Source: a virus
IMG/VR virus record: IMGVR_UViG_3300031951_000899
Coordinates: 1-29,271 of that record
Length of the DNA stretch: 29,271 bases
Strand: one strand, 5' to 3'
The notes below the pieces were generated by a model that had not been told where the DNA came from, made no database searches, and saw nothing but the letters and a program-made list of their open reading frames with translations. The position numbers and the translations under genes were made by a program. This document shows positions 11,273 to 29,271 of the stretch, one piece after another. How positions within the stretch are numbered: the stretch's first letter is position 1; every line of letters starts with the position of its first letter.

Positions 11273-11821
11273 CTAAGCGATCGACGCAGACAACTGCCAA
11301 CGCCACTTGTCGTGCTGATCAATACGTTCGGCGATGAAGTTCTCAACGCCTTCCGACTCCACGTCGCCAGCGACTTCGTATGCCATCTTCAACGACGCAA
11401 GAACAACATCGTTCGCAGCGAGCAAATCCGCAGCAAGATCAGCCGGCAACGGAGACGCAACCGGAACATCGACGATCGTGCGAAGCGCCATAAGTTCAGG
11501 CAAACGGAACGGAGCGACGCCGCCCGATTTCAGGATGTTCTCAGCGACCCCATCTACCGAGCCATAAACGTCCTCGTAGATAGCGCCGAACAGTTCGTGA
11601 TACTGAGCGAAGTCGGCTCCACGGACATTCCAATGAAACCCCTGCGCACGCAAACTCATCGAGATCACATCGGCAAGCAATACGCGTAGAGCGGAGATAA
11701 GCATCTGCGGATCGACGGGCATTTCGTCCTCGACGTCCATCATCTCATGTTCCGCTTTTGATACCGACCCACGTTGCGCTACAACTTGCCGGCCTTCATT
11801 GCGATTCACCCAAACGGTCAT
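11273..11821 (-). CDS. dps: Dps/ferritin-like protein
   Basis: 182 residues, ATGA overlap with the upstream head gene. Residues 40-180 form a Dps four-helix bundle. RAQGFHWNVRGADFAQYHEL carries H63 and H75, and YEDVYGSVDGVAENI carries D90 and E94. Their spacing (12, 27 and 31 from the first His) equals the ferroxidase-site ligands of E. coli Dps, so the intersubunit iron site looks intact. The C-terminus (FIAERIDQHDKWRWQLSASI) is also typical. The N-terminal 35 residues are an extra extension. Dps proteins oxidise and store iron and protect DNA. In a head operon the protein could be packaged, protect DNA, or have been adapted as a structural protein; which one is inference. Confidence 0.85.
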   Translation of the reverse strand: MTVWVNRNEGRQVVAQRGSVSKAEHEMMDVEDEMPVDPQMLISALRVLLADVISMSLRAQGFHWNVRGADFAQYHELFGAIYEDVYGSVDGVAENILKSGGVAPFRLPELMALRTIVDVPVASPLPADLAADLLAANDVVLASLKMAYEVAGDVESEGVENFIAERIDQHDKWRWQLSASIA

Positions 11822-13968
11822 AACACACCTTCCTCGGTTTCAAGATCAATCATTACTCGTTCGCCACGGCCACCTATCGAGTAGCCGCGAATCTTTCCTT
11901 GACGGACAAGGTCCCACGCCCAAGGTTCCCAAACAACACCCATGTAGACGGTGCCGGCAGGGAACTCATGATCGGTTACTTTGCCATCTGCATCAGACAT
12001 AGGGACAACAACCGGCATCGGCCACGTCAGCGCTTCAACCCATTCGCCTGCAACTACGTCGAGGTTGTGTTGCAAACGGATCTGCCGGTCGGAGTTTCTA
12101 ACGTAATCCCAAAGAGCCTGTTGGAGTTGCTCCGAGTCAGTCCACTCGCCATGAGCGTCATACGAATCGGGGACGTACCACGGGCCGAGCGTGTATCGAC
12201 GTTCCTCAGACTTCATGAACACGCCGGCAGTCTTATCTAACGGATCAATGACCGTTAGCGTCGAGACCTTATGGCCAACGCTTTGATCGGTTGCCATCCA
12301 ACCTTGAGAAGTGCGACGCCAAACGTTGATAAGGACCGCTGGGTCATCTTCGCTTCCGTTGACGGTAAACGTGGAATCGGGAATGTTTAGTTTGCCCTCG
12401 GTGACGATTCGGGTGATCTTTCCGCGTGCGGTTCCACCTGACGATCCCCACGAAACGAACGAGCCGACCCGCACGTCTTCGGCTTTGCTAATCACCGGTG
12501 GTGTCGGCTGTCGTCGAGTACGTCGCGTACTTGACCCCATAGGCACATCAACGTGAACTTCCGAAACGGTCGGAGATTTCTCAACGCTGTCAAGAATGCT
12601 GCGTGTCCATGAGATTGCCGGGTCGCCACCCCACGCTGCCCACGCAACACGACCGGCGGACGGGTAGTTATCTTCACCCGGCGACCACCCTTGACCCTGC
12701 TTATCTACAGCATGGCGAGCGAGGTAGGACGACATGCGTTGGATAATGTCAAGCGATACGGCTCGACCAGCGGCTAGGTCGGATGCGCGTCGACGGCCAA
12801 CCGGTGTGAAGTTGTCGCCGGCGTAGCCTTCTTCGATCCAGCGGACTGCGCGTTGCGCTTCTTCCTGCACGCCCTTTGGTGGCGTGTACATCTCCGCTTT
12901 CTTGAACCGTTCTATCTCCGCTAAGCGTTGTTCGGCTTCGGGGAGTGTTGCATAACACCCAAAGGAACGGGAGCCATCAGCGGAAGTGACGCAATAACCC
13001 TCGTCGGTTTCAACGATATCTTTCATGAAAGACATCTCAACGTCGAGTTCTTCGTCGGGGAGTTCAGGGCCGAGTAGCCGGGTGCGCTCGGGGATTACCC
13101 ACAAACGACAGATGCCTTCCGGCATGATCGCACCTTCGACCCAGTAGCAGCCTGCGGTTTCAGGGCAATACGCAACACAGTTAGCACATGCGAGATTGTC
13201 GTCAGCGAATGGTGACGGCTCCATGTAGTGCGCTTCGTCGGCGGTGAAGTAGCCGGCAGTCTCGACGATCTCGTCGATAGAGGCAGCGAGCATCGCTGAG
13301 CGAACGGTTAGGTCGCCGATGTCGGCTCCGTGATCGTGTTCGTGTTCATAGTCGTAGGCATGCATTTCGTGAGCCATCTTGCCTACGACCCCATTGCAAA
13401 TCGTGCCTTCTTCGGGCGCCGGTCCACCACAGATGCGGCAGCGCAACACGCCTTTACGCGTAGTCCAAACGGCACGCTCGAACGCGTGCGGCGCACGGGC
13501 GGCGATGCGTTTGCGGTTTCGGGCGATGGCTGCGTTTTCCTGCTCGAAGGAAAGACCTTTGCCGAATACGGAACGGAAGCGACCTAACAACCCAACACGC
13601 TGCTGCGGATACGATTGTGTGTCGTCGTATTCCTCGTCATCAGCGTCGGCGTATTCATCGTCGCCGTTCCAGTCGGGTTCAGGAAACTGCACCTCCGTGT
13701 GTTCGGCGGGTGCGGGTGGTTCGTCATTTACTTCGGGTGCGGTGGTAGGCACCCACCCCTCATCGTCGTCTGATGGCATTAGCACGACCGAGTAGCCGTC
13801 ATCGGTAAGGACCGATGCGATATCTACTGTTCGAGCGCCAAGCGAAACGATGGCGTCAACCTTTGAAGCGAGGTCTGAAGGCAGGTTCGTTGCCGACGTA
13901 AGCGAGGTCAAAGGCACGTTACGAACGATGTCAATGACCTGTGGGGTTTGTTTGCTTTGTTCTTCCAC
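11818..13968 (-). CDS. Mosaic head protein with C-terminal XkdF-type domain
   Basis: 716 residues, GTG start at 13968 with CCGGAGGCTCTA upstream. In order: N-terminal alpha/beta region (1-70); acidic linker (70-120); cysteine cluster CRICGGPAPEEGTIC (177-191); CANCVAYCPETAGCYW with GICRLW (261-290), like high-potential iron-sulphur or metal-binding segments; small beta repeat with SADGSRSFGCYATLPEAEQ (about 325-350); a helical domain with QRMSSYLARHAVDK and YPSAGRVAWAAWGGD (360-450) common in phage head proteins; an SH3-like unit (500-575, SSGGTARGKITRIV, GHKVSTLTVI); and an XkdF domain (590-716, HEFPAGTVYMGVVW, GKIRGYSIGGRGER). XkdF-type domains occur in prohead protease or maturation proteins; no protease triad is obvious. 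It lies between MuF and the Dps-like gene. Confidence 0.8.
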   Translation of the reverse strand: MEEQSKQTPQVIDIVRNVPLTSLTSATNLPSDLASKVDAIVSLGARTVDIASVLTDDGYSVVLMPSDDDEGWVPTTAPEVNDEPPAPAEHTEVQFPEPDWNGDDEYADADDEEYDDTQSYPQQRVGLLGRFRSVFGKGLSFEQENAAIARNRKRIAARAPHAFERAVWTTRKGVLRCRICGGPAPEEGTICNGVVGKMAHEMHAYDYEHEHDHGADIGDLTVRSAMLAASIDEIVETAGYFTADEAHYMEPSPFADDNLACANCVAYCPETAGCYWVEGAIMPEGICRLWVIPERTRLLGPELPDEELDVEMSFMKDIVETDEGYCVTSADGSRSFGCYATLPEAEQRLAEIERFKKAEMYTPPKGVQEEAQRAVRWIEEGYAGDNFTPVGRRRASDLAAGRAVSLDIIQRMSSYLARHAVDKQGQGWSPGEDNYPSAGRVAWAAWGGDPAISWTRSILDSVEKSPTVSEVHVDVPMGSSTRRTRRQPTPPVISKAEDVRVGSFVSWGSSGGTARGKITRIVTEGKLNIPDSTFTVNGSEDDPAVLINVWRRTSQGWMATDQSVGHKVSTLTVIDPLDKTAGVFMKSEERRYTLGPWYVPDSYDAHGEWTDSEQLQQALWDYVRNSDRQIRLQHNLDVVAGEWVEALTWPMPVVVPMSDADGKVTDHEFPAGTVYMGVVWEPWAWDLVRQGKIRGYSIGGRGERVMIDLETEEGVL

Positions 13969-14961: not shown

Positions 14962-16290
14962 CTATTCGCCTGAGTCTCCGAGGCCGGGGACCAACGTGGA
15001 CAGAGGCGCTGATTGATCCGCCGGCGGTAGACCGGCAAGATCACGCACCCAACTTTCAAGTGTTTCGTCGGGAACGATTGCTCCGGCTTGCGAAAGTTTG
15101 AGTACGAACTCGGCGATGCCGGCAAGATCAGTTGCACCGATGTCGGCGTAAGTGAGTTTCGGGCAACGAGCGGTATCCATACCGTTGAGTTTCAGTAGTC
15201 GAGGAATAGCGTGATCGTTGAACACGTCGGTAATCCCGCTAGCCCAAGCATCGATAGCCTGCGTAAACAGGTCAATCTTTGATGTGCCGAGCGCAAACGA
15301 ACCAACATTGCTGTGGCCGAGCAGAATGAAGTCGGCAAGGACTGTCATCGCAATTCGTTGATCGTATCGAGCGATGATCTTGTCGGTATCAAACTGGCGT
15401 TGACCGCCGGACGAAAGCAGTTCTAAGCGGAAGAGTTCACGTCCGGCTTCGTCGTAGGCGAGCGGAAAGACAACGCCTTCCTGTTCGTTGCGTTTGATCC
15501 CTTGAACGATGTCGGTGATTGCTGATAGCGCTGAGCGTTGCGCTTCGGTTGCGTTACTTGCAAGCAATGACGGTGGCACATAGGCGATAGGTAGACCGGC
15601 GAGATCGCGTTCCATTCCTACCGCTTCGAACTCTTCGATGCGGCGTTTGTAATACCACGGGCGGAACGCGTTGCGGAGAATCGAACGGCCTTCAGGGTTT
15701 GCCTTCGCTACGGTCGTGCGAAAGAGCAGCGCCTTCTCCATGGGAATGGTGGCGTGAACTCCGGTCGATGGGTCCCATTGAACCATCGCTTCGAGGGCAC
15801 CGTCTTTGCCGAATATCCATTGCCAGCGACTCTCTTGCGCTCGATAAGCGATTTTACGCCAACCGATTCGACCGTCGTTGTAACGAGACTTCTTAGTCGG
15901 GTCCGTTTGATCCGGTCCAAGTCGTCGCTTGTAAACAAGTTCGTGGAACGAGAATCCGAATGGAAGCATCGTCAAGATTCCTTGAAGCAACGCTCCCCAA
16001 GATTCGTTTAGATCATGGCGGCATGACTCGACGAATTGCGCTACGTCTTCATCTGCCGGCGTGGAGTTGCCGTCTTGATCGGTGTAAGGATCGACACGCC
16101 ATTCTACGTGTAACAGCAGTTTCTCAATAGCGAATAGCAACGCACCCACAATCGGGTCGTTGTCGCTCATCTCTCGCCAAGCATTGACTGCGTTGGTTCC
16201 TCGAAGGGCGGAGAGTTGATCGTCGATGATGAAACCACCGACGCGGCGTAGGCCGGTAGTTCCAAGTTCTGTCATGTTTTCGTCGGCCAC
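14962..16290 (-). CDS. Portal protein (DUF935-like)
   Basis: 442 residues, GTG 16290 overlapping the WhiB stop as TAGTG. Key regions include NDPIVGALLFAIEKLLLHVEWRV (about 43-65), the wing beta region with FGFSFHELVYKRRLG, FRPWYYKRRIEEFEAVGMER (around 208-228), the stem-like SALSAITDIVQGIKRNEQEG, then HSNVGSFALGTSKIDLFTQAIDAW, which is the classic crown-proximal segment of DUF935-type portals. The 12-mer portal forms the DNA channel at the capsid vertex and binds terminase. The acidic loop DPYTDQDGNSTPADEDV is also typical. Confidence 0.9.
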   Translation of the reverse strand: MADENMTELGTTGLRRVGGFIIDDQLSALRGTNAVNAWREMSDNDPIVGALLFAIEKLLLHVEWRVDPYTDQDGNSTPADEDVAQFVESCRHDLNESWGALLQGILTMLPFGFSFHELVYKRRLGPDQTDPTKKSRYNDGRIGWRKIAYRAQESRWQWIFGKDGALEAMVQWDPSTGVHATIPMEKALLFRTTVAKANPEGRSILRNAFRPWYYKRRIEEFEAVGMERDLAGLPIAYVPPSLLASNATEAQRSALSAITDIVQGIKRNEQEGVVFPLAYDEAGRELFRLELLSSGGQRQFDTDKIIARYDQRIAMTVLADFILLGHSNVGSFALGTSKIDLFTQAIDAWASGITDVFNDHAIPRLLKLNGMDTARCPKLTYADIGATDLAGIAEFVLKLSQAGAIVPDETLESWVRDLAGLPPADQSAPLSTLVPGLGDSGE

Positions 16291-16577
16291 TAGCGAAGTC
16301 TCCTGCTATTGATGGCGGTAGATGCTTGTCTAATGCTAGTGCCGTCTTCGATCGCTGACATGATCTGTGTGCGCTCGTCGCGTGGATGCCCACCCCACAC
16401 GCCGAACGGCTCGTCGAGGTGATCTGTTAGGCAGCGGATTCGTACCGGACATTCCTTGCAAATGCCCCTCGCTTTGTTGACCGTATCCCGTCCGAAGAAC
16501 ACGCTCAATGGGATGCGTTCTTTGCGGCACGTTGCCCCAACCCACCAGCCGGGTGCGGCCACGAAGGGCAACCTCAT
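16290..16577 (-). CDS. whiB: WhiB-family iron-sulphur transcriptional regulator
   Basis: 95 residues. Four conserved cysteines C17, C40, C43 and C49 (C-x22-C-x2-C-x5-C) coordinate a [4Fe-4S] cluster in WhiB-like proteins. NKARGICKECPVRIRC and the G-[VI]-W-G-G beta turn (59-63) followed by HPRDER and a short basic C-terminus (NSRRLR) complete the family pattern. WhiB-like proteins bind the host primary sigma factor and act on promoters. The actinophage TM4 WhiB is known to inhibit host WhiB2 function and cause superinfection exclusion. ATGA overlap with the acidic protein upstream and TAGTG with portal, so it is cotranslated with head genes, which is unusual. Confidence 0.9.
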   Translation of the reverse strand: MRLPFVAAPGWWVGATCRKERIPLSVFFGRDTVNKARGICKECPVRIRCLTDHLDEPFGVWGGHPRDERTQIMSAIEDGTSIRQASTAINSRRLR

Positions 16578-18574: not shown

Positions 18575-18808
18575 CTACCGACCGAGGCGCTTCCAGCGGT
18601 AGGCGTTAGCCCCATTCACGGCCCACCAAAGTGGAGCCATCGCCGCCGCTCCCCATCGCTCAAACAGCACCGCGACGACAACCCACGGGATCGAATGACC
18701 GAGCACGATCAACCATCCCCACCATCGACCTGATCCAACAATCCATTGACCTGCAATGCCAACGACTTCGAATGCAAGAAGAATCCACCACCACGATTGT
18801 TCGCTCAT
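18575..18808 (-). CDS. Small membrane protein with two to three spans
   Basis: 77 residues, Trp-rich. Spans: WWWILLAFEVVGIAGQWIVG (about 6-25), WWGWLIVLGHSIPWVVVAVLF (29-49) and a possible third before NGANAYRWKRLGR. Its ATG overlaps the methyltransferase stop as ATGA, so they are coupled. The C-terminal 'N-x-x-N-A-Y-R-W-K' is like small phage membrane proteins adjacent to various genes; family not recognised. A role with the methyltransferase is not obvious. Confidence 0.75.
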   Translation of the reverse strand: MSEQSWWWILLAFEVVGIAGQWIVGSGRWWGWLIVLGHSIPWVVVAVLFERWGAAAMAPLWWAVNGANAYRWKRLGR

Positions 18809-19719
18809 CGTCGAGCATCATCGCCGGTAACGACGGCAAGAACACTTGCGGCGAGTAACGGTGGCACCGCATTGCCGATCTGCTTGAACTGCGAAGTCTC
18901 GTTACCTTGCACCGGATACCCATCGGGAAAGGATTGCAATCGCAACGTTGAAGCCGGAGTCAATCGCTCGACGACTATCCCGTCGACGGTGATGTGCCAT
19001 TGTCCGCCGGACTTGCCGGTAATCGTTTTCGATGGCGACGTCCACGGGTCGAATGTTTGCGCGGTACTGCGATCACCTCGCACCTTCCACCGCTGACCGG
19101 TATTGACTTGCGCTCCACGCATTACCTCTGCGTTCCAATCAAGAGCAGCGGCCATAGGAACCCACGGTTGCAATCTTCCACCGAACAGGTCTTCCTGTGG
19201 ATTGTGATTGTGCGTCGGCGTAGGTGGTCGAGCACGATCGGGGTCGGTATGCGCTATGAGGAATGAACGTTCACGGGCTTGCGCTACGCCATAGTCGGCA
19301 GCGTTCAATACGCCGGCCCAAGTTGCGTAGCCCCAACCTTGCAATGTTTCTTGGAAGTCCATCCACACGGGAAGCGCTTGCGGGACTTGTTCGCACGCAA
19401 TCCATTGAGGCCGTATCGCTTCGGTCCATCGAAGAACTTCATGGATCAACTGTCCACGTTCACCTTCGAGGCCGGCTTTCGTTCCGGCCCAAGAGAAGTC
19501 TTGGCAAGGCGGCGATGCGATAAGCCCGGTTGCACCGGTGAACCGAGCGCAGTCGTATGTTGCGACATCGGTTTGGATTGTCTTATGGCCGGCAGCGCAA
19601 CGGGTTGCACACGCATCGGCATCCCATTCCAATCCGATCTCGGTGGCGTGCAAGCGCTCGTCGAGTAGGCGTAACCCTTCCGACCAGCCACCGGGGCCGG
19701 CGAATAGATCAACGATCAT
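18805..19719 (-). CDS. DNA cytosine-5 methyltransferase
   Basis: 304 residues with C5-MTase motifs in order: I DLFAGPGGWSEG (4-15, SAM binding); IV SPPCQDFSW with catalytic C72; VI EQV (110-112; usual ENV) followed by PQ; VIII QARER (147-151); a target-recognition stretch (about 175-250); IX/X FKQIGNAVPPLLA near the end. All core residues are present, so it is probably active and would modify cytosines in phage or host DNA to evade restriction. No adjacent restriction gene is visible, so it looks like an orphan enzyme. Start ATG 19719 is preceded by AAGGATTGATCGGCA. Confidence 0.9.
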   Translation of the reverse strand: MIVDLFAGPGGWSEGLRLLDERLHATEIGLEWDADACATRCAAGHKTIQTDVATYDCARFTGATGLIASPPCQDFSWAGTKAGLEGERGQLIHEVLRWTEAIRPQWIACEQVPQALPVWMDFQETLQGWGYATWAGVLNAADYGVAQARERSFLIAHTDPDRARPPTPTHNHNPQEDLFGGRLQPWVPMAAALDWNAEVMRGAQVNTGQRWKVRGDRSTAQTFDPWTSPSKTITGKSGGQWHITVDGIVVERLTPASTLRLQSFPDGYPVQGNETSQFKQIGNAVPPLLAASVLAVVTGDDARR

Positions 19720-24072: not shown

Positions 24073-24702
24073 CTACAAGGCCGATAGGCCACCTAGGTCG
24101 AAGTCGTTGCCCTTCATGAATCCAAGCGGCGCTACGTCGGGGATAATGCCGGACCCCATGCCAGTGAGTCCTAGCGACGTTATTGCCCATACCAACGCGT
24201 CGAGGCGATCCGGGGACTCGCTGCTGGATTGAGTCCAAGCAGTCAATTGATCCTCAAGGACAGAGAAGCGCAACGGACTGCCGACATGATGAACTCGACC
24301 TTGTTCGTAGAGCGCTGCTACCGGCTCGGCTCTCGCTCGTTTTCCAACGCGTGCGGTAACTCTCGTTACCGGCAAGCCTGCCCGTTGAGTTCTAAGCACT
24401 TGCGTTACGAGGTCGCCGCCTTGGTTTCCTTCGGCAATGACCCGGTCGGCCTGCCAGTCATCGAACATTTCCACGACCCGGCGAGCCCATTCGTCGACGG
24501 TAGGGCGTGCTGTGGATTCGATTGTTGCGTCGTCGAGGACGTAGGCGTGGCCGGGACACGGATCGACCCTGCACGTTTCGGGTTGGTGTGGACCGATGCC
24601 GGCGACGATGATGCCGGTTTCGTCTGCGTTCTCGCCTGAAGTCATAGCCGGATCGACGCCTACTACGACACGCGTTAGGTCTGATCGTGCGATAAAGATC
24701 AT
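24073..24702 (-). CDS. Terminase large subunit, nuclease part
   Basis: 209 residues, RNase H-like nuclease domain of terminase. VVVGVDPAMTSGENADETGI carries D17; ADRVIAEGNQGGDLV carries E91; SSESPDRLDALVWAITSLGL carries D165 and D168. These are the expected metal-binding acids. It cuts concatemeric DNA at packaging. In most phages of this family it is the C-terminal half of one ~450-500 aa protein; here it is a separate gene whose ATG overlaps the ATPase stop as ATGA. The reading frame differs, and both ends at the join have sensible extra residues, so it is a clean split rather than a one-base error. Confidence 0.9.
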   Translation of the reverse strand: MIFIARSDLTRVVVGVDPAMTSGENADETGIIVAGIGPHQPETCRVDPCPGHAYVLDDATIESTARPTVDEWARRVVEMFDDWQADRVIAEGNQGGDLVTQVLRTQRAGLPVTRVTARVGKRARAEPVAALYEQGRVHHVGSPLRFSVLEDQLTAWTQSSSESPDRLDALVWAITSLGLTGMGSGIIPDVAPLGFMKGNDFDLGGLSAL

Positions 24703-25643
24703 GTTTCGTTATCCACCCATTGCGCACGGAGCCGATCGATTTGTTCGAGCGACCATAGAGCGCCTTCAACGTCAGTAAGCATTTCGCCGTGCAACTCCTG
24801 CCTGCCGATACGGGTGCCTTCGTAGGCGGTTAGCACTTGGCTGCGGAACGACGGTGCGAGGTTGTCTAGGTTCGCATAAGTCGTATCGGTGGTAGTGATC
24901 GTCGTGGGGCGCTCGATCAACTGTCGCATCAAACGGATCGGCTTTGGAGTCGTGGTCATCAGGCAGCGAGGGTCCTGTCCGATACGCAAACCGAGCATGA
25001 GGTTGTTCCAAGACGTGTCGAGCGCATCACCCTTAGTTGCATCCGGCCACGCTGCTGATTCATCAACCCATGCGGCATCGTGCTGCGGTCCACGCAACTG
25101 CGACGGGGCATCCGCCGAATAGGTGAACGCTTGCGCACCGTTAGGCCATACGAGCCGGCGCTTCGTCGGTTGATGATCGGGGCGTGGGAGCGGATCGGAA
25201 CAAGCCATAATCCCTGAGTCCCCATAGATCATAACGTCTCGAACATCTGCACGGGTTCGACCTACGAGCGCTATGCGACGCTTCCCGTGATTCCATACTT
25301 GATCGAGAATCCATTCGGAACCGGCACGGGTCTTGCCGGCACCACGACCACCGGAGAACAACCACACCAACCATTCCCCTTCGGGTGGTCGTTGCGCTGG
25401 ACGAGAATGACGGCACTCCGGTCCATGATCCGACGAGTCGATCGGATGTTCACACCAATGCCAACCGACGTGCGGCGATCCATCGCAATCCGGGTCAGGA
25501 CAATAGAAACGACGAGTCGTATCCGTCTCGACGGAATCTAGTTCCGCTGCAACAGCAGCCCGTTCCGCATCAGACAAGCGAGCGAGCACACGCCGCCGTT
25601 GCGATGCGGGTAATCCCCGAAGGCGATCAAGAGTCGTCGTCAT
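24699..25643 (-). CDS. Terminase large subunit, ATPase part
   Basis: 314 residues. N-terminal Arg-rich helices (1-35), then a Cys/His-rich insert (C48, C53, H62, C64, H66, C77, H79) that may bind zinc, then the packaging ATPase: Walker A SGGRGAGKT (97-105), Walker B AAWVDESAAW with D194/E195, and coupling motif TTTPKP (230-235). It ends LHGEMLTDVEGALWSLEQID, the usual linker before the nuclease domain, which is encoded by the next gene. The ATPase drives DNA into the procapsid through the portal. It overlaps the small subunit by 17 bp. Confidence 0.9.
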   Translation of the reverse strand: MTTTLDRLRGLPASQRRRVLARLSDAERAAVAAELDSVETDTTRRFYCPDPDCDGSPHVGWHWCEHPIDSSDHGPECRHSRPAQRPPEGEWLVWLFSGGRGAGKTRAGSEWILDQVWNHGKRRIALVGRTRADVRDVMIYGDSGIMACSDPLPRPDHQPTKRRLVWPNGAQAFTYSADAPSQLRGPQHDAAWVDESAAWPDATKGDALDTSWNNLMLGLRIGQDPRCLMTTTPKPIRLMRQLIERPTTITTTDTTYANLDNLAPSFRSQVLTAYEGTRIGRQELHGEMLTDVEGALWSLEQIDRLRAQWVDNET

Positions 25644-26055
25644 CGTCCGCTGTGTCAGCGATTAGTTCAGCGATCCGTTTGTCGAGTAGGTCAACGTCAA
25701 CTTGCACGGGACCGCCATTAGGTCCGGTAACTTCGGTGCGTTGATAGCGGCCCCACCGGTGCGAGTGTGATCGTTCAAGGAACCAAGCCGCTGCTTGCCA
25801 CGTTCCGTTCTGTGCAGCCTGTTGGATTAGTGCAACGGATCGCACCTCGGCAGCCGCTCTAGCGTTTTCTACTGCCTCTCGGAACTCTCGGAGTTCTTTC
25901 GGTGCGTTGTCGTCGAGCGCGTCGGCCATCCATCGGTAGAAGGTCGGTTCGCTGATGCCGGCGTAGCGTGCGGCAGTCTCTTGATAGTTCCCGGCTTGGA
26001 GTGCTTGAACGATTTTCTCTTGGACTTCGGGTGTGAGTTTCGTTGGGCGTGACAT
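25627..26055 (-). CDS. Terminase small subunit
   Basis: 142 residues. An HTH at about 20-43 (ALQAGNYQETAARYAGISEP then TFYRWM) that binds the packaging site; helical oligomerisation region (REFREAVENARAAAEVRSVA); FLERSHSHRWGRYQRTEVTG, a typical small-terminase signature; and an acidic C-terminus (ADTADDDDDS) that may contact the ATPase. It lies directly before the large subunit. Confidence 0.9.
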   Translation of the reverse strand: MSRPTKLTPEVQEKIVQALQAGNYQETAARYAGISEPTFYRWMADALDDNAPKELREFREAVENARAAAEVRSVALIQQAAQNGTWQAAAWFLERSHSHRWGRYQRTEVTGPNGGPVQVDVDLLDKRIAELIADTADDDDDS

Positions 26056-26075: not shown

Positions 26076-26870
26076 CTAGTCGAACACCATAACGTCAGGG
26101 TTAGCGTGCTGTTCTGTTGTGTTGTCGATCTTTGTGCCGTCTACCCATGTGCGGTTGAGCATGGGGTGGGTTTCGTCTTCCGGTCCCCAGTCTGTGTCGG
26201 GGTGGAATGCGATGACGTTGAGGTTGTCGCCGGAGTCGGCGGTGTGGAATGAGTGAACAACGTCTTTGGGGATAATCCACATCATGCCGGGGAGTAGGTC
26301 GAGGCGGTTGCCGTCTCCGTCGATGCAGTAGCCGGCACCGGAAGCGATTGCGCCGCACCGGACTGACGGGTGTGTGTGCGCTGTTTGATGGATTCCCGGT
26401 GGGAAGTGTAAGAGGTTTAGGCAGGGGTCGCCGAGCCGTGGTGGCGAAATGAGCAGGGTATCGGAGCACCTGTCGATGTAACGCAAGCGGCCCTTCGGCT
26501 CGACGGGTCCACCGATGGTGCGGAGCGGCACGAAGTCGGTTGTGTGAATGGCGACTAGGCGTGCAGGCTCATCGGGGTTGAACAGGAATGTAACCGGAGC
26601 GCTAACAGCGAAGTATTGACCGGCGACGAGTGTGACTGGTTCGAGGTTGTGGGTGTAGTCGCGCATCATGACCGTACCTTCGCTGACATACCCGAATACA
26701 GCGCCACGCGTTTCAATGATCGTGGCGTCGGTTGCCGGTGCGTGTTCTTCGGAAACCGTCTCGAATCCGTAGAGGGTTGATTCGCGTAGCGATCCGTCCG
26801 GCATCGTGTCGGTGACGGTGAGTAGAGGCCCGAAGTATTCGGTCCACGTTTGGAACTTGTCGATGATCAT
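26076..26870 (-). CDS. Bicupin protein, putative metal-dependent enzyme
   Basis: 264 residues, two cupin barrels. The C-terminal barrel (about 145-225) has HTHPSVRCGAIASGAGYCID with H165 and H167, a PGMMWIIPKDVVHSFH segment with H206/H209 completing a likely metal site. The N-terminal barrel (about 35-110, VFGYVSEGTVMMRD, LVAGQYFAVSAP) lacks His ligands and seems degenerate. Cupins of this shape include dioxygenases, isomerases and sugar-binding proteins. It is ATGA-coupled to the PAPS-reductase-family protein upstream and lies 20 bp before the terminase genes, so it probably acts with the sulphur/nucleotide-type enzymes. Activity unknown. Confidence 0.8.
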   Translation of the reverse strand: MIIDKFQTWTEYFGPLLTVTDTMPDGSLRESTLYGFETVSEEHAPATDATIIETRGAVFGYVSEGTVMMRDYTHNLEPVTLVAGQYFAVSAPVTFLFNPDEPARLVAIHTTDFVPLRTIGGPVEPKGRLRYIDRCSDTLLISPPRLGDPCLNLLHFPPGIHQTAHTHPSVRCGAIASGAGYCIDGDGNRLDLLPGMMWIIPKDVVHSFHTADSGDNLNVIAFHPDTDWGPEDETHPMLNRTWVDGTKIDNTTEQHANPDVMVFD

Positions 26871-27553
26871 TCGGTGATACTCCTTGTTGTAGCGAATCTT
26901 TCTGGGGTGATAGACGGGTCGAGGCTATTAGCGAGCCGCCACGCCTGTTCGTAACCGCCTACGAGTTTGTGTTTGAGGTTGAAGAACGGTCCGTTGCCTA
27001 CAAGTTGGCCGTGGACGTTGTGATAAATCCACGGCTTCGGGATACCGACTTTGTCCATGTACGCCCAAATGTGTTCATGCTTCCACGCTCGAATAGGGTG
27101 AAACGATCCGAGATGACGGGTCTTGTAGAGCATGTGCGGCACCGTGTTCTCTTGCGTCCGGCGACCGAAAACAACCATGTCATGTCCGTTCTCGGTGGCG
27201 TAGTCGCGCATCGTGGTGTGCTGTCTTTGCGCAAACCACTTTAGTCTGATCCGGCTATCCGTAGCGAAAAGGTATTGGGGGTTGTGTCGAAGCCAGTCGT
27301 CGTCGCGCCGTTTTTCCCATGAGATAGTTAGCCCCATGTTTGCTGCGATGTTTTGTACGTCTGCGGCCTGCCGTTCGTAGTAATGCGAAACTTCACATGC
27401 GCCGATCGTGATGCCGTGGAGCGCCATTAGGTGTGCCATAACGATGGAGTCTTTACCGCCGGAAAACGCAAGCACAGGATTAGAACAAGTGACTAATGCC
27501 GAATCAATGTCGATATGGGCTTGAGCGATTAGTTCGTCGAGGTCTGCGGTCAC
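26867..27553 (-). CDS. PAPS reductase-family protein (second SGGKDS enzyme)
   Basis: 228 residues. NPVLAFSGGKDSIVMAHLMA has the N-type ATP-pyrophosphatase PP-loop SGGKDS at 31-36. VVFGRRTQENTVPHML (about 125-142) and FHPIRAWKHEHIWAYMDKVG (about 150-170) fit the PAPS-reductase/ThiI-like fold (R-x-x-E motif and substrate pocket). It lacks the CGLH-type catalytic Cys tail of true PAPS reductases, so the chemistry is probably adenylation of a different substrate. Much shorter than the IbrA-like protein. Both ends are ATGA-coupled (ParB-like before, cupin after). Confidence 0.85.
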   Translation of the reverse strand: MTADLDELIAQAHIDIDSALVTCSNPVLAFSGGKDSIVMAHLMALHGITIGACEVSHYYERQAADVQNIAANMGLTISWEKRRDDDWLRHNPQYLFATDSRIRLKWFAQRQHTTMRDYATENGHDMVVFGRRTQENTVPHMLYKTRHLGSFHPIRAWKHEHIWAYMDKVGIPKPWIYHNVHGQLVGNGPFFNLKHKLVGGYEQAWRLANSLDPSITPERFATTRSITE

Positions 27554-28086
27554 GACTCAACCTGCTTGTCCGTGTCCGGTTTCCATGACTCCGAGAAGTC
27601 TTCGCTTGCGCCGCGTTCGATCATCTGTCCACGCATAAGCAGCCTTGTCACTTCTTCTGAGTCCATACCGAGCCGTGCTTTGAGGTCTTCCGGGGAAACG
27701 TCATACACGTTTACGAGTTCATCAACGATGTCAGCCATACGGACAACGTGATGTTTGCCGCGTGCTCGATTATGTCTAATCGTCGCCATCCGCTGATGAG
27801 CGGGATCGGGGTCAATGATTACGACCGGCACCAAGTTGTTGGTCAACGCTCCAACGTCTTTGCGCCCCGAAACCGTCCAGCGATGAAAGCCGTCAACGAT
27901 TTCGTAACGTCCGTTATCGACCGAACGAGCGACGATAGGTTGCGTCCACCCCGACTCTAGGATCGACTGTGCTAGCAACCGAAGTTCGGGAGAGGCAACG
28001 TGATTCGGGTTGTAGTCGTTTGCCTGTAGGAGTTCCCGGTCAAGCCATTGGACGTTAGATATCGGTTGTTGATCGTGGTGCGACAT
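27550..28086 (-). CDS. ibrB: IbrB-like ParB/Srx-fold protein
   Basis: 178 residues. ANDYNPNHV (22-30), SILESGWTQPIVARSVDNGR and the GFHRW box (66-70, equivalent to the ParB GERRW motif) define a ParB/sulfiredoxin-fold domain, followed by ATIRHNRARGKHHVVRMADI and an HTH-like region (MDSEEVTRLLMRGQM). Proteins of this type pair with IbrA-like PAPS-reductase proteins in prophages; E. coli ibrA/ibrB were described as regulators of immunoglobulin-binding eib genes. The ParB/Srx fold may hydrolyse NTP or bind DNA. The 32-bp overlap with the IbrA-like gene shows coupling. The gene symbol reflects similarity of pattern, not proof. Confidence 0.8.
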   Translation of the reverse strand: MSHHDQQPISNVQWLDRELLQANDYNPNHVASPELRLLAQSILESGWTQPIVARSVDNGRYEIVDGFHRWTVSGRKDVGALTNNLVPVVIIDPDPAHQRMATIRHNRARGKHHVVRMADIVDELVNVYDVSPEDLKARLGMDSEEVTRLLMRGQMIERGASEDFSESWKPDTDKQVES

Positions 28087-29271
28087 GAGTGCCTTCCGGG
28101 TCGTCGAGTATTGGGATGCGTTTCGGTAGCCATGATGCGCCTTGATCGCGCAACTCTTGGGCTTCCTTCGCGTAACGGACCTTGAACTTTTCGTACTTGT
28201 TGTATCCGGGAGCGAGGCTAGCCATGATGCGTTTCTTTAGGTCCGCTGTTTGTGCAGCCTTAGCAAGAATACGCCAAGACACACCCGTCAATGGGTGACG
28301 GCTGCTAATGAGGATTGGGTCCTCAACCTTTTTGTAATGGAATCGAATGAGGCCTTGCACGGAACGTGCCGCAGCAACCCTCATTTCATTGTCGGTATGT
28401 TGATCGATGATCTCTCGAATACGTTCTTGCGGTGTTTGATCTTTACCTAGAACGAACGGGCCATAAGCGCCATAAAGTTCGGTGTTCGCATAACGACTCG
28501 CTGCCGCAGCACCGGGGACTCGGTCAACCATTTTGTCCCATAGTTCAGGATACGCTTCATGCCATTCATGTAGGCCACGCAACGGTTCGTCACCGTATGG
28601 CGGAGCGCAGCGTTGCGACGCATGTCCCACCCCCATCATTTCAAGGATGTCGTAATACCGGTTGTAGTCCCAACCGAGTTTCTTCGGCGCAGTCCAAACG
28701 TCAGACGTAGTCCAGTCGTACACCGGATATGCCTTCACGATCCAAGGAGCAGTCTTCCACGGCGGCGTAATCCAGTTATGCAATCGGCTAGAAACTGAAA
28801 CCGCTTTCAGTCGCGTGAGCGATTCTTGCGCTCGAATACCTAGAACCGCTGCTGTACGACCGTATTCGGGACCTACAACGTATGGAACTAGTTCGTCGAT
28901 AGGAGCCCGATGCTCGTCGGTGTCGAGGTCTAATCCTTCGATTTCAGTTATCGCTTCAGGCGGAAGGTCACGCACCCATAGGTGTTTGTCTTCCGAGGCC
29001 CACGGGAACCAATACCCTGAGTCCATGGCGGCTCCGTTGCGGTGTCGTAATGGGACGCAATACCATCGAAGATCGACTTCAGGCATTTGGCTAACACGCC
29101 TTACATAATCTTCGGTGTCGGGTGCTATGGCCTCTTCGTCGAAGAAGATCGTCAGCAGCGGAAGCCGGTTGAGCCTAATCGCCGCTTCAAGGCACAGGTT
29201 GAACACGGCAGTAGAATCTTTGCCTCCTGAGAATGAAACGAACACTGTGTCGTATTCATGAAACAGGAGAT
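28055..29271 (-). CDS. ibrA: IbrA-like PAPS reductase-family protein (5'-truncated by window)
   Basis: 404 residues visible, frame open to the window end (…LLFHEYDTVFVSFSGGKDS), so the GTG at 29245 is internal and the start lies outside. The PP-loop SGGKDS lies about 14-19 residues into the visible part, then GIRAQESLTRLKA (substrate/ATP motif), VKAYPVYDWTTSDVW and QRCAPPYGDEPLRGL, which match the DUF3440/IbrA-type signature (Y-P-I-x-D-W-x-x-x-D-V-W; Q-R-x-x-x-P-x-G-D). It should adenylate a substrate or transfer sulphur; substrate unknown. It is followed immediately by the IbrB-like gene, as in known ibrAB pairs. Confidence 0.85.
   Translation of the reverse strand, partial: LLFHEYDTVFVSFSGGKDSTAVFNLCLEAAIRLNRLPLLTIFFDEEAIAPDTEDYVRRVSQMPEVDLRWYCVPLRHRNGAAMDSGYWFPWASEDKHLWVRDLPPEAITEIEGLDLDTDEHRAPIDELVPYVVGPEYGRTAAVLGIRAQESLTRLKAVSVSSRLHNWITPPWKTAPWIVKAYPVYDWTTSDVWTAPKKLGWDYNRYYDILEMMGVGHASQRCAPPYGDEPLRGLHEWHEAYPELWDKMVDRVPGAAAASRYANTELYGAYGPFVLGKDQTPQERIREIIDQHTDNEMRVAAARSVQGLIRFHYKKVEDPILISSRHPLTGVSWRILAKAAQTADLKKRIMASLAPGYNKYEKFKVRYAKEAQELRDQGASWLPKRIPILDDPEGTHVAPRSTTDI

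Follow-up and report, generated by a model that had tools for sequence, protein, structure and literature searches.

Introduction

The IbrA/IbrB prophage pair, a PP-loop (DUF3440-like) gene followed by a ParB gene, is known from Escherichia phage PhiR5_2 and from Streptococcus phages. We know of no biochemistry for IbrA/IbrB or for the 'PAPS reductase' (phosphoadenosine phosphosulfate reductase) genes of phages. The 29,271-base IMG/VR virus record IMGVR_UViG_3300031951_000899 (the window, meaning the whole stretch of DNA analysed here) carries such a pair on the minus strand, within a cassette that also encodes a second PP-loop enzyme and a bicupin.

Comparable components occur in several described systems. 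The phosphorothioation systems DndBC and BrxP of BREX type 4 resemble the cassette in having a PP-loop enzyme of the PAPS-reductase superfamily and a ParB-family partner (DndB). DndB is partnered with DndC, which has a cysteine dyad in addition to the three cysteines of its 4Fe-4S cluster, and host IscS-type desulfurases are able to replace DndA (PMC10853773). In the CmoA-CmoX-CmoY system for carboxymethylcytosine hypermodification (Synechococcus phage S-B43), a PP-loop enzyme forming adenosine monophosphate (AMP) is encoded with ParB genes near CmoX/CmoY; CmoY, an asparagine-synthetase homologue, is a phage DNA ligase that joins glycine to phage DNA, and relatives of CmoY with a glutaminase/glutamine-amidotransferase domain are thought to use ammonia (PMC12783734). 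In 7-deazaguanine DNA modification (Dpd), the ParB-like ATPase DpdB works alongside a base-modifying enzyme (PMC12839542), as the ParB partner may do here. Viral PAPS-reductase genes have also been read as cysH (PMC8319345).

The cassette and its closest relatives

The four genes are g1, an IbrA-like PP-loop adenosine triphosphate (ATP) pyrophosphatase (28055–29269, its 5′ end cut by the end of the window); g2, an IbrB-like protein of the ParB/Srx fold (27550–28086); g3, a short PP-loop ATP pyrophosphatase of PAPS-reductase/CysD type (26867–27553); and g4, the bicupin (26076–26870). They overlap by 32 bp (g1/g2), 4 bp (g2/g3) and 4 bp (g3/g4), and 20 bp separate the end of g4 from the terminase small subunit gene downstream. 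The coordinates bear out the original prediction of four tightly overlapping genes in this order directly before the packaging genes, and the SGGKDS motifs it had read in g1 and g3 are both present. The operon it described is, however, longer than four genes. A contig of 36,297 bases (L002/G001), identical across the cassette and extending about 9.8 kb further, shows the order SNF2 helicase, double ParB (396 aa), ParB (237 aa), IbrA, IbrB, g3, cupin, terminase small subunit (TerS) and terminase large subunit (TerL). In this contig g1 is complete (428 aa, L002:6213-7499), and both upstream ParB genes match PF02195, their products matching the N-terminal ParB part of phage/type II methyltransferase models.

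By Pfam, g1 matches PAPS_reduct (4.2e-11), with DUF3440 below threshold (22.3 of 25 bits), and its PHROGs match is phrog_2302, 'phosphoadenosine phosphosulfate reductase' (5e-74). The g2 protein matches ParB_N (PF02195, 2.7e-10) and a ParB-like family in PHROGs (5e-63). PAPS_reduct is also the Pfam match of g3 (1.9e-7), together with a CysD-type NCBIfam model that stays below its cut-off (3.8e-8). The bicupin matches Cupin_2 (3.8e-10) and gave no match in the PHROGs search.

The g1 and g2 proteins are homologous to IbrA and IbrB of PhiR5_2 (33.7% identity for g1, 294 aa, and 41.5% for g2; profile E-values 6e-113 and 7e-62), and the two pairs share the same order and the same kind of overlap, a PP-loop/DUF3440-like gene followed by a ParB gene. 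The PhiR5_2 pair has no adjacent g3, cupin or upstream ParB gene, whereas that of the window is embedded in a larger operon. Closer in layout is the gp02-gp10 region of Arthrobacter phage LiSara/Laroye, with double ParB (gp02), ParB (gp05), IbrA (gp06), IbrB (gp07), TerS and TerL in the same order; LiSara gp02 is 37% identical to the 396-aa ParB of the window phage, and gp08, annotated as a methyltransferase (no Pfam match), stands in place of g3 and the cupin. The papers found do not present this cluster as a pathway. A different phage (L006/L007), whose cupin is 68% identical, retains the order ParB, IbrA, IbrB, g3, cupin and TerL, which argues that the gene set is more than chance. Tandem IbrA copies ahead of a single IbrB were also seen, three in L239:7283-11468 and two in L008:11826-14080.

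Recurrence among viral contigs

Viral contigs of IMG/VR were searched with IbrB, with an alignment of the cupin (213 relatives) and with an alignment of g3. Genes were counted from six-frame open reading frames (ORFs) lying no more than 5 kb from the seed and on its strand, and loci were dereplicated at 90% seed identity. The best 80 loci of each search were used, the g3 counts are those among the matches listed, and the samples are weighted toward close relatives of the query. Among 56 IbrB-seeded loci, IbrA was found in 55, SNF2 in 35, ParB0 in 16, the cupin in 9 and g3 in 7. The 56 cupin-seeded loci included IbrA in 49, IbrB and ParB0 in 45 each, and g3 in 10. Around g3 (65 loci), the neighbours were IbrA (62), IbrB (61), ParB0 (61), a sodium:solute symporter (42) and the cupin (14). 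Rare co-occurrence had been set beforehand as the outcome to count against the original prediction; the genes co-occur commonly, with IbrA near 49/56 cupin-seeded and 62/65 g3-seeded phage loci, as expected of one functional cassette.

The junctions between these genes overlap in most cases: 88% of 184 for IbrA-IbrB, 93% of 76 for ParB0-IbrA, 89% of 65 for ParB0-cupin, and 41/41 for symporter-g3. Frequent orders are ParB0-cupin-IbrA-IbrB and symporter-g3-ParB0-IbrA-IbrB, and terminase-like genes come after IbrB in the recurrent neighbour clusters. The gene set is not a chance assembly. The IbrA-IbrB pair is near-invariant, while g3, the cupin, the symporter and a glutamine amidotransferase vary around it. 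The SNF2 helicase gene, which overlaps IbrA in many IbrB-seeded loci, is nearby in just 1/56 of the cupin-seeded and 2/65 of the g3-seeded loci and was therefore treated as lineage-specific module order and not as a core member.

Active sites and predicted structures

An alignment of 48 IbrA sequences showed that SGGKDS and DxE are retained and that a single cysteine column (C95) is conserved, in 47/48 sequences. The CysH motif ECGxH was found in 0/48 IbrA and 0/7 g3 sequences. The AlphaFold2 model of IbrA (predicted local distance difference test, pLDDT, 89) confirms a PP-loop fold, its best Foldseek matches being the PAPS domain of flavin adenine dinucleotide (FAD) synthase and CysH, over about half of the length. 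Enzymes of the FAD synthase/CysH subgroup transfer AMP to, or act on, phosphate or sulphate groups.

In 28 IbrB sequences, ten residues (D65, G66, H68, R69, H105, N106, R107, R109, G110 and H112) are invariant and the motifs IVDGxHR and RHNRARGxH are retained. The ParB_N domain of g2 carries a GxHR-type motif, which places the protein in the ParB/Srx superfamily.

For the cupin, the AlphaFold2 model (pLDDT 75) agrees with the bicupin of the original prediction, but the metal-binding His pattern is confined to the C-terminal domain. In the alignment Q162, H165, H167 and R171 of this domain are invariant and H206 is nearly so. The HxH and downstream His suggest a metal-binding cupin, with R171 where cupins usually carry Glu. 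Foldseek matched generic bicupins only (oxalate decarboxylase, quercetinase and ureidoglycine aminohydrolase), which do not fix the reaction.

Sequence searches of the PDB gave no close relative.

Additional partners in phages and cells

In gut-type phages, a sodium:solute symporter gene (PF00474) overlaps g3, and it stands beside g3 in the 42 loci counted above (for example L246:4505-5911 and L011:4538-5920, with about 40 others), in an operon shortly before the terminase region. For a membrane transporter this position is unexpected, its gene being part of a phage operon and overlapping that of a PP-loop protein. The nearest curated relatives of the symporter are pantothenate and proline symporters, far below cut-off and so too remote to indicate its solute.

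In about six lineages (L105/106/111/112, L008, L013/L032, L169, L201 and L239), a standalone class-II glutamine amidotransferase gene adjoins g3 or sits between it and IbrA; the proteins are 25–46% identical to each other. That of L111 is GATase_6/7 by Pfam. Most start with an N-terminal MCG, although none is present in the ORF read for L013 and L032; the L008 gene has the opposite orientation, and L120 is a weak seventh case.

In cellular genomes most loci of the cupin family are without IbrA. A same-strand asparagine synthetase gene, members of which were confirmed by Pfam, lies within 4 kb of the cupin in 37/73 dereplicated cellular loci. A set of cupin, asparagine-synthetase-type enzyme and zinc-ribbon protein recurs there (L252-L330, in Planctomycetes, Methylococcales, Acidobacteria, Myxococcota and others). 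Among the dereplicated viral cupin loci, seven are also without IbrA; three are cut at the cupin by the contig end, and four (L128, L135, L157 and L158) have a nearby gene for an SGG[IL]DS PP-loop protein of about 360–410 aa, on the opposite strand in two loci. These proteins show at most sub-threshold similarity to asparagine synthase and match no Pfam family. Across several unrelated settings, then, the cupin keeps company with a PP-loop ATP pyrophosphatase.

The amidotransferase, the symporter and the cellular asparagine synthetase suggest that nitrogen, or a small molecule brought in by import, is involved. The three associations (amidotransferase with PP-loop gene, symporter with g3, and cellular cupin with asparagine synthetase) were not found in the papers searched. 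Those open-licence papers gave no account of the symporter or amidotransferase link, and none joining PAPS reductase, ParB and cupin, so that a prior description elsewhere is possible.

Neighbouring genes in the window

Downstream of the cassette and on the same strand are the genes for TerS (25627–26055; phrog_4102, 8.5e-39) and TerL (24073–25643; Terminase_6N, 1.3e-23; phrog_38 and phrog_979). TerL is split into two ORFs (24699–25643 and 24073–24702), for the ATPase and the nuclease, joined by a 4-bp overlap. A second related contig (L003/L005:1920-3490) shows the same split, which therefore looks genuine rather than an assembly error; in L006, TerL is one 465-aa gene. Further minus-strand genes encode a 716-aa protein combining an Hva1 TUDOR domain with an XkdF-type phage protease at its C-terminus (11818–13968), a C5-cytosine DNA methylase with an SPPCQ motif (18805–19719; PF00145, 3e-42) and, among the structural genes, a WhiB-like transcription regulator (16290–16577), which suggests an actinobacterial host.

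Discussion

Gene order, overlaps, co-occurrence, missing catalytic motifs and fold class are direct observations. A near-obligate IbrA-IbrB pair surrounded by variable accessory genes looks like a writer accompanied by enzymes that supply or tailor its donor. DNA modification, already put forward in the original prediction, is still the best hypothesis, and our tentative preference, held with slightly less than even confidence, is that the cassette serves as a late-expressed module for modifying phage DNA, with IbrA-IbrB as its core writer and accessory proteins supplying or tailoring the nucleophile. IbrB and the upstream ParB proteins would load on or open DNA using nucleotide, and IbrA would spend ATP on adenylating a carbonyl, carboxyl or phosphate group of the DNA, allowing displacement by a nucleophile. 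The variable genes would provide or tailor that nucleophile: g3, as a second ATP pyrophosphatase, may produce an activated or amidated small molecule, the class-II glutamine amidotransferase may feed ammonia to g3 in some phages, and the phage-borne sodium symporter may import the g3 substrate in gut phages. In the window phage, the bicupin would perform a metal-dependent tailoring step.

That DNA is the target, that adenylation takes place and that the incoming atom is nitrogen rather than sulphur we infer from precedent, since ParB proteins accompany DNA-modifying enzymes in the Dpd (DpdB), Dnd (DndB) and CmoX/CmoY systems, and CmoY ligates an amino acid to DNA and has relatives thought to use ammonia. 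The two kinds of PP-loop enzyme differ, those of the cassette being of PAPS-reductase type (PF01507) and those of the Cmo system of asparagine-synthetase type (PF00733), a family matched by neither g1 nor g3.

Several observations weigh against this proposal. Only a minority of the phages carry the amidotransferase, and the amidotransferase, symporter and asparagine synthetase were all undetected in the checked parts of the window's contig (for the asparagine synthetase, the window and L091), so that the nitrogen argument is transferred from relatives; the window phage would then use free ammonia or another amine, or its accessory gene lies elsewhere. There is no consistent methyltransferase or other enzyme providing a chemical handle. 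A C5-cytosine methylase, the type of enzyme that CmoX represents, occurs in 3/50 cassette records, the window's own phage among them, and a CmoX-like carboxymethyl handle was rejected as part of the cassette on this count; CmoA was not searched for. Adjacency to the terminase genes may reflect module order only.

A clearly less probable explanation, though one with a realistic chance, is that the cassette serves small-molecule or nucleotide-pool metabolism, or counter-defence, making or repairing a metabolite (for example, to neutralise a host defence signal) and leaving DNA untouched. The symporter, amidotransferase, CysD-like g3 and cupin are all compatible with small-molecule chemistry, the free serine kinase SerK has a ParB/Srx fold and is matched weakly by the IbrB profile, and IbrA is closest in fold to the PAPS domain of FAD synthase. 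DNA is favoured by the at least one, and usually at least two, ParB proteins per cassette, by the near-obligate IbrB and by ParB genes elsewhere being tied to DNA-modifying enzymes; nor does a late position ahead of the terminase suggest early counter-defence.

Sulphur modification of DNA, as a phosphorothioate backbone or a thiolated base, is improbable. IbrA would here act like DndC or BrxP, which it matches weakly (1.8e-7 and 4.8e-5), DndB would be the counterpart of its ParB-family partner, and a host cysteine desulfurase could be the sulphur source, as IscS-type enzymes can replace DndA. The cysteines of the DndC cluster and dyad, however, have no counterpart in IbrA beyond the C95 column, and IbrA scores 20.9 bits against NCBIfam TIGR03183 (DndC), far below the cut-off of 290.4. 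The link to DndC made in the original prediction is therefore not supported, and Dnd-type sulphur transfer is disfavoured. The recurrent neighbour clusters included no recognisable DndD/DndE or desulfurase family (whole genomes were not searched with DndD/E profiles), and the amidotransferase and asparagine-synthetase links indicate nitrogen, not sulphur. The transglycosylase DpdA was likewise unrecognised among recurrent neighbours, with no DpdA profile search made.

A purely regulatory role, with IbrA/IbrB as co-activators of prophage or host gene expression, is a still poorer candidate. It follows the E. coli annotation, the PhiR5_2 genes being labelled 'Co-activator of prophage gene expression', and ParB proteins do bind DNA, but it leaves the strictly kept ATP-pyrophosphatase motif, the second PP-loop enzyme, the cupin, the symporter and the amidotransferase unexplained, and modification of promoter DNA could itself yield a regulatory effect. 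Assimilatory sulphate reduction, in which the PAPS-reductase-like genes would be cysH-type auxiliary metabolic genes as their Pfam and PHROG names and the published cysH reading imply, is very unlikely and was rejected, since the CysH motif is missing from every IbrA and g3 sequence aligned, no CysH family cut-off is reached, and the partners are ParB, cupin and amidotransferase rather than sulphite reductase or kinase genes.

It is conceivable, though on balance doubtful, that these cassettes form one modular family for DNA hypermodification. IbrA-IbrB would link a group to the DNA through nitrogen, the second PP-loop enzyme would make the donor from glutamine ammonia or a symporter-imported solute, and the cupin would finish that donor. 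If true, its chemistry would be unlike the known phosphorothioate, 7-deazaguanine or carboxymethylcytosine systems. Searches of INPHARED were negative for three cupin queries and reached a single uncultured gut record with two g3 queries, so that neither gene was seen in a cultured phage. The core is carried by the cultured Arthrobacter phage LiSara and Escherichia phage PhiR5_2 (IbrA-IbrB, host K-12 MG1655), which makes the question of the product testable.

Phages widely carry IbrA/IbrB pairs and 'PAPS reductase' genes, which are frequently assigned to sulphur metabolism. The pair was already known in prophages, and the cassette recurs across many unrelated phages, tying IbrA/IbrB to conserved partners: a second PP-loop enzyme, at least two ParB proteins, a cupin, a glutamine amidotransferase and a sodium symporter. 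This set of partners argues against sulphate reduction and offers a concrete chemical hypothesis for what these genes may do.

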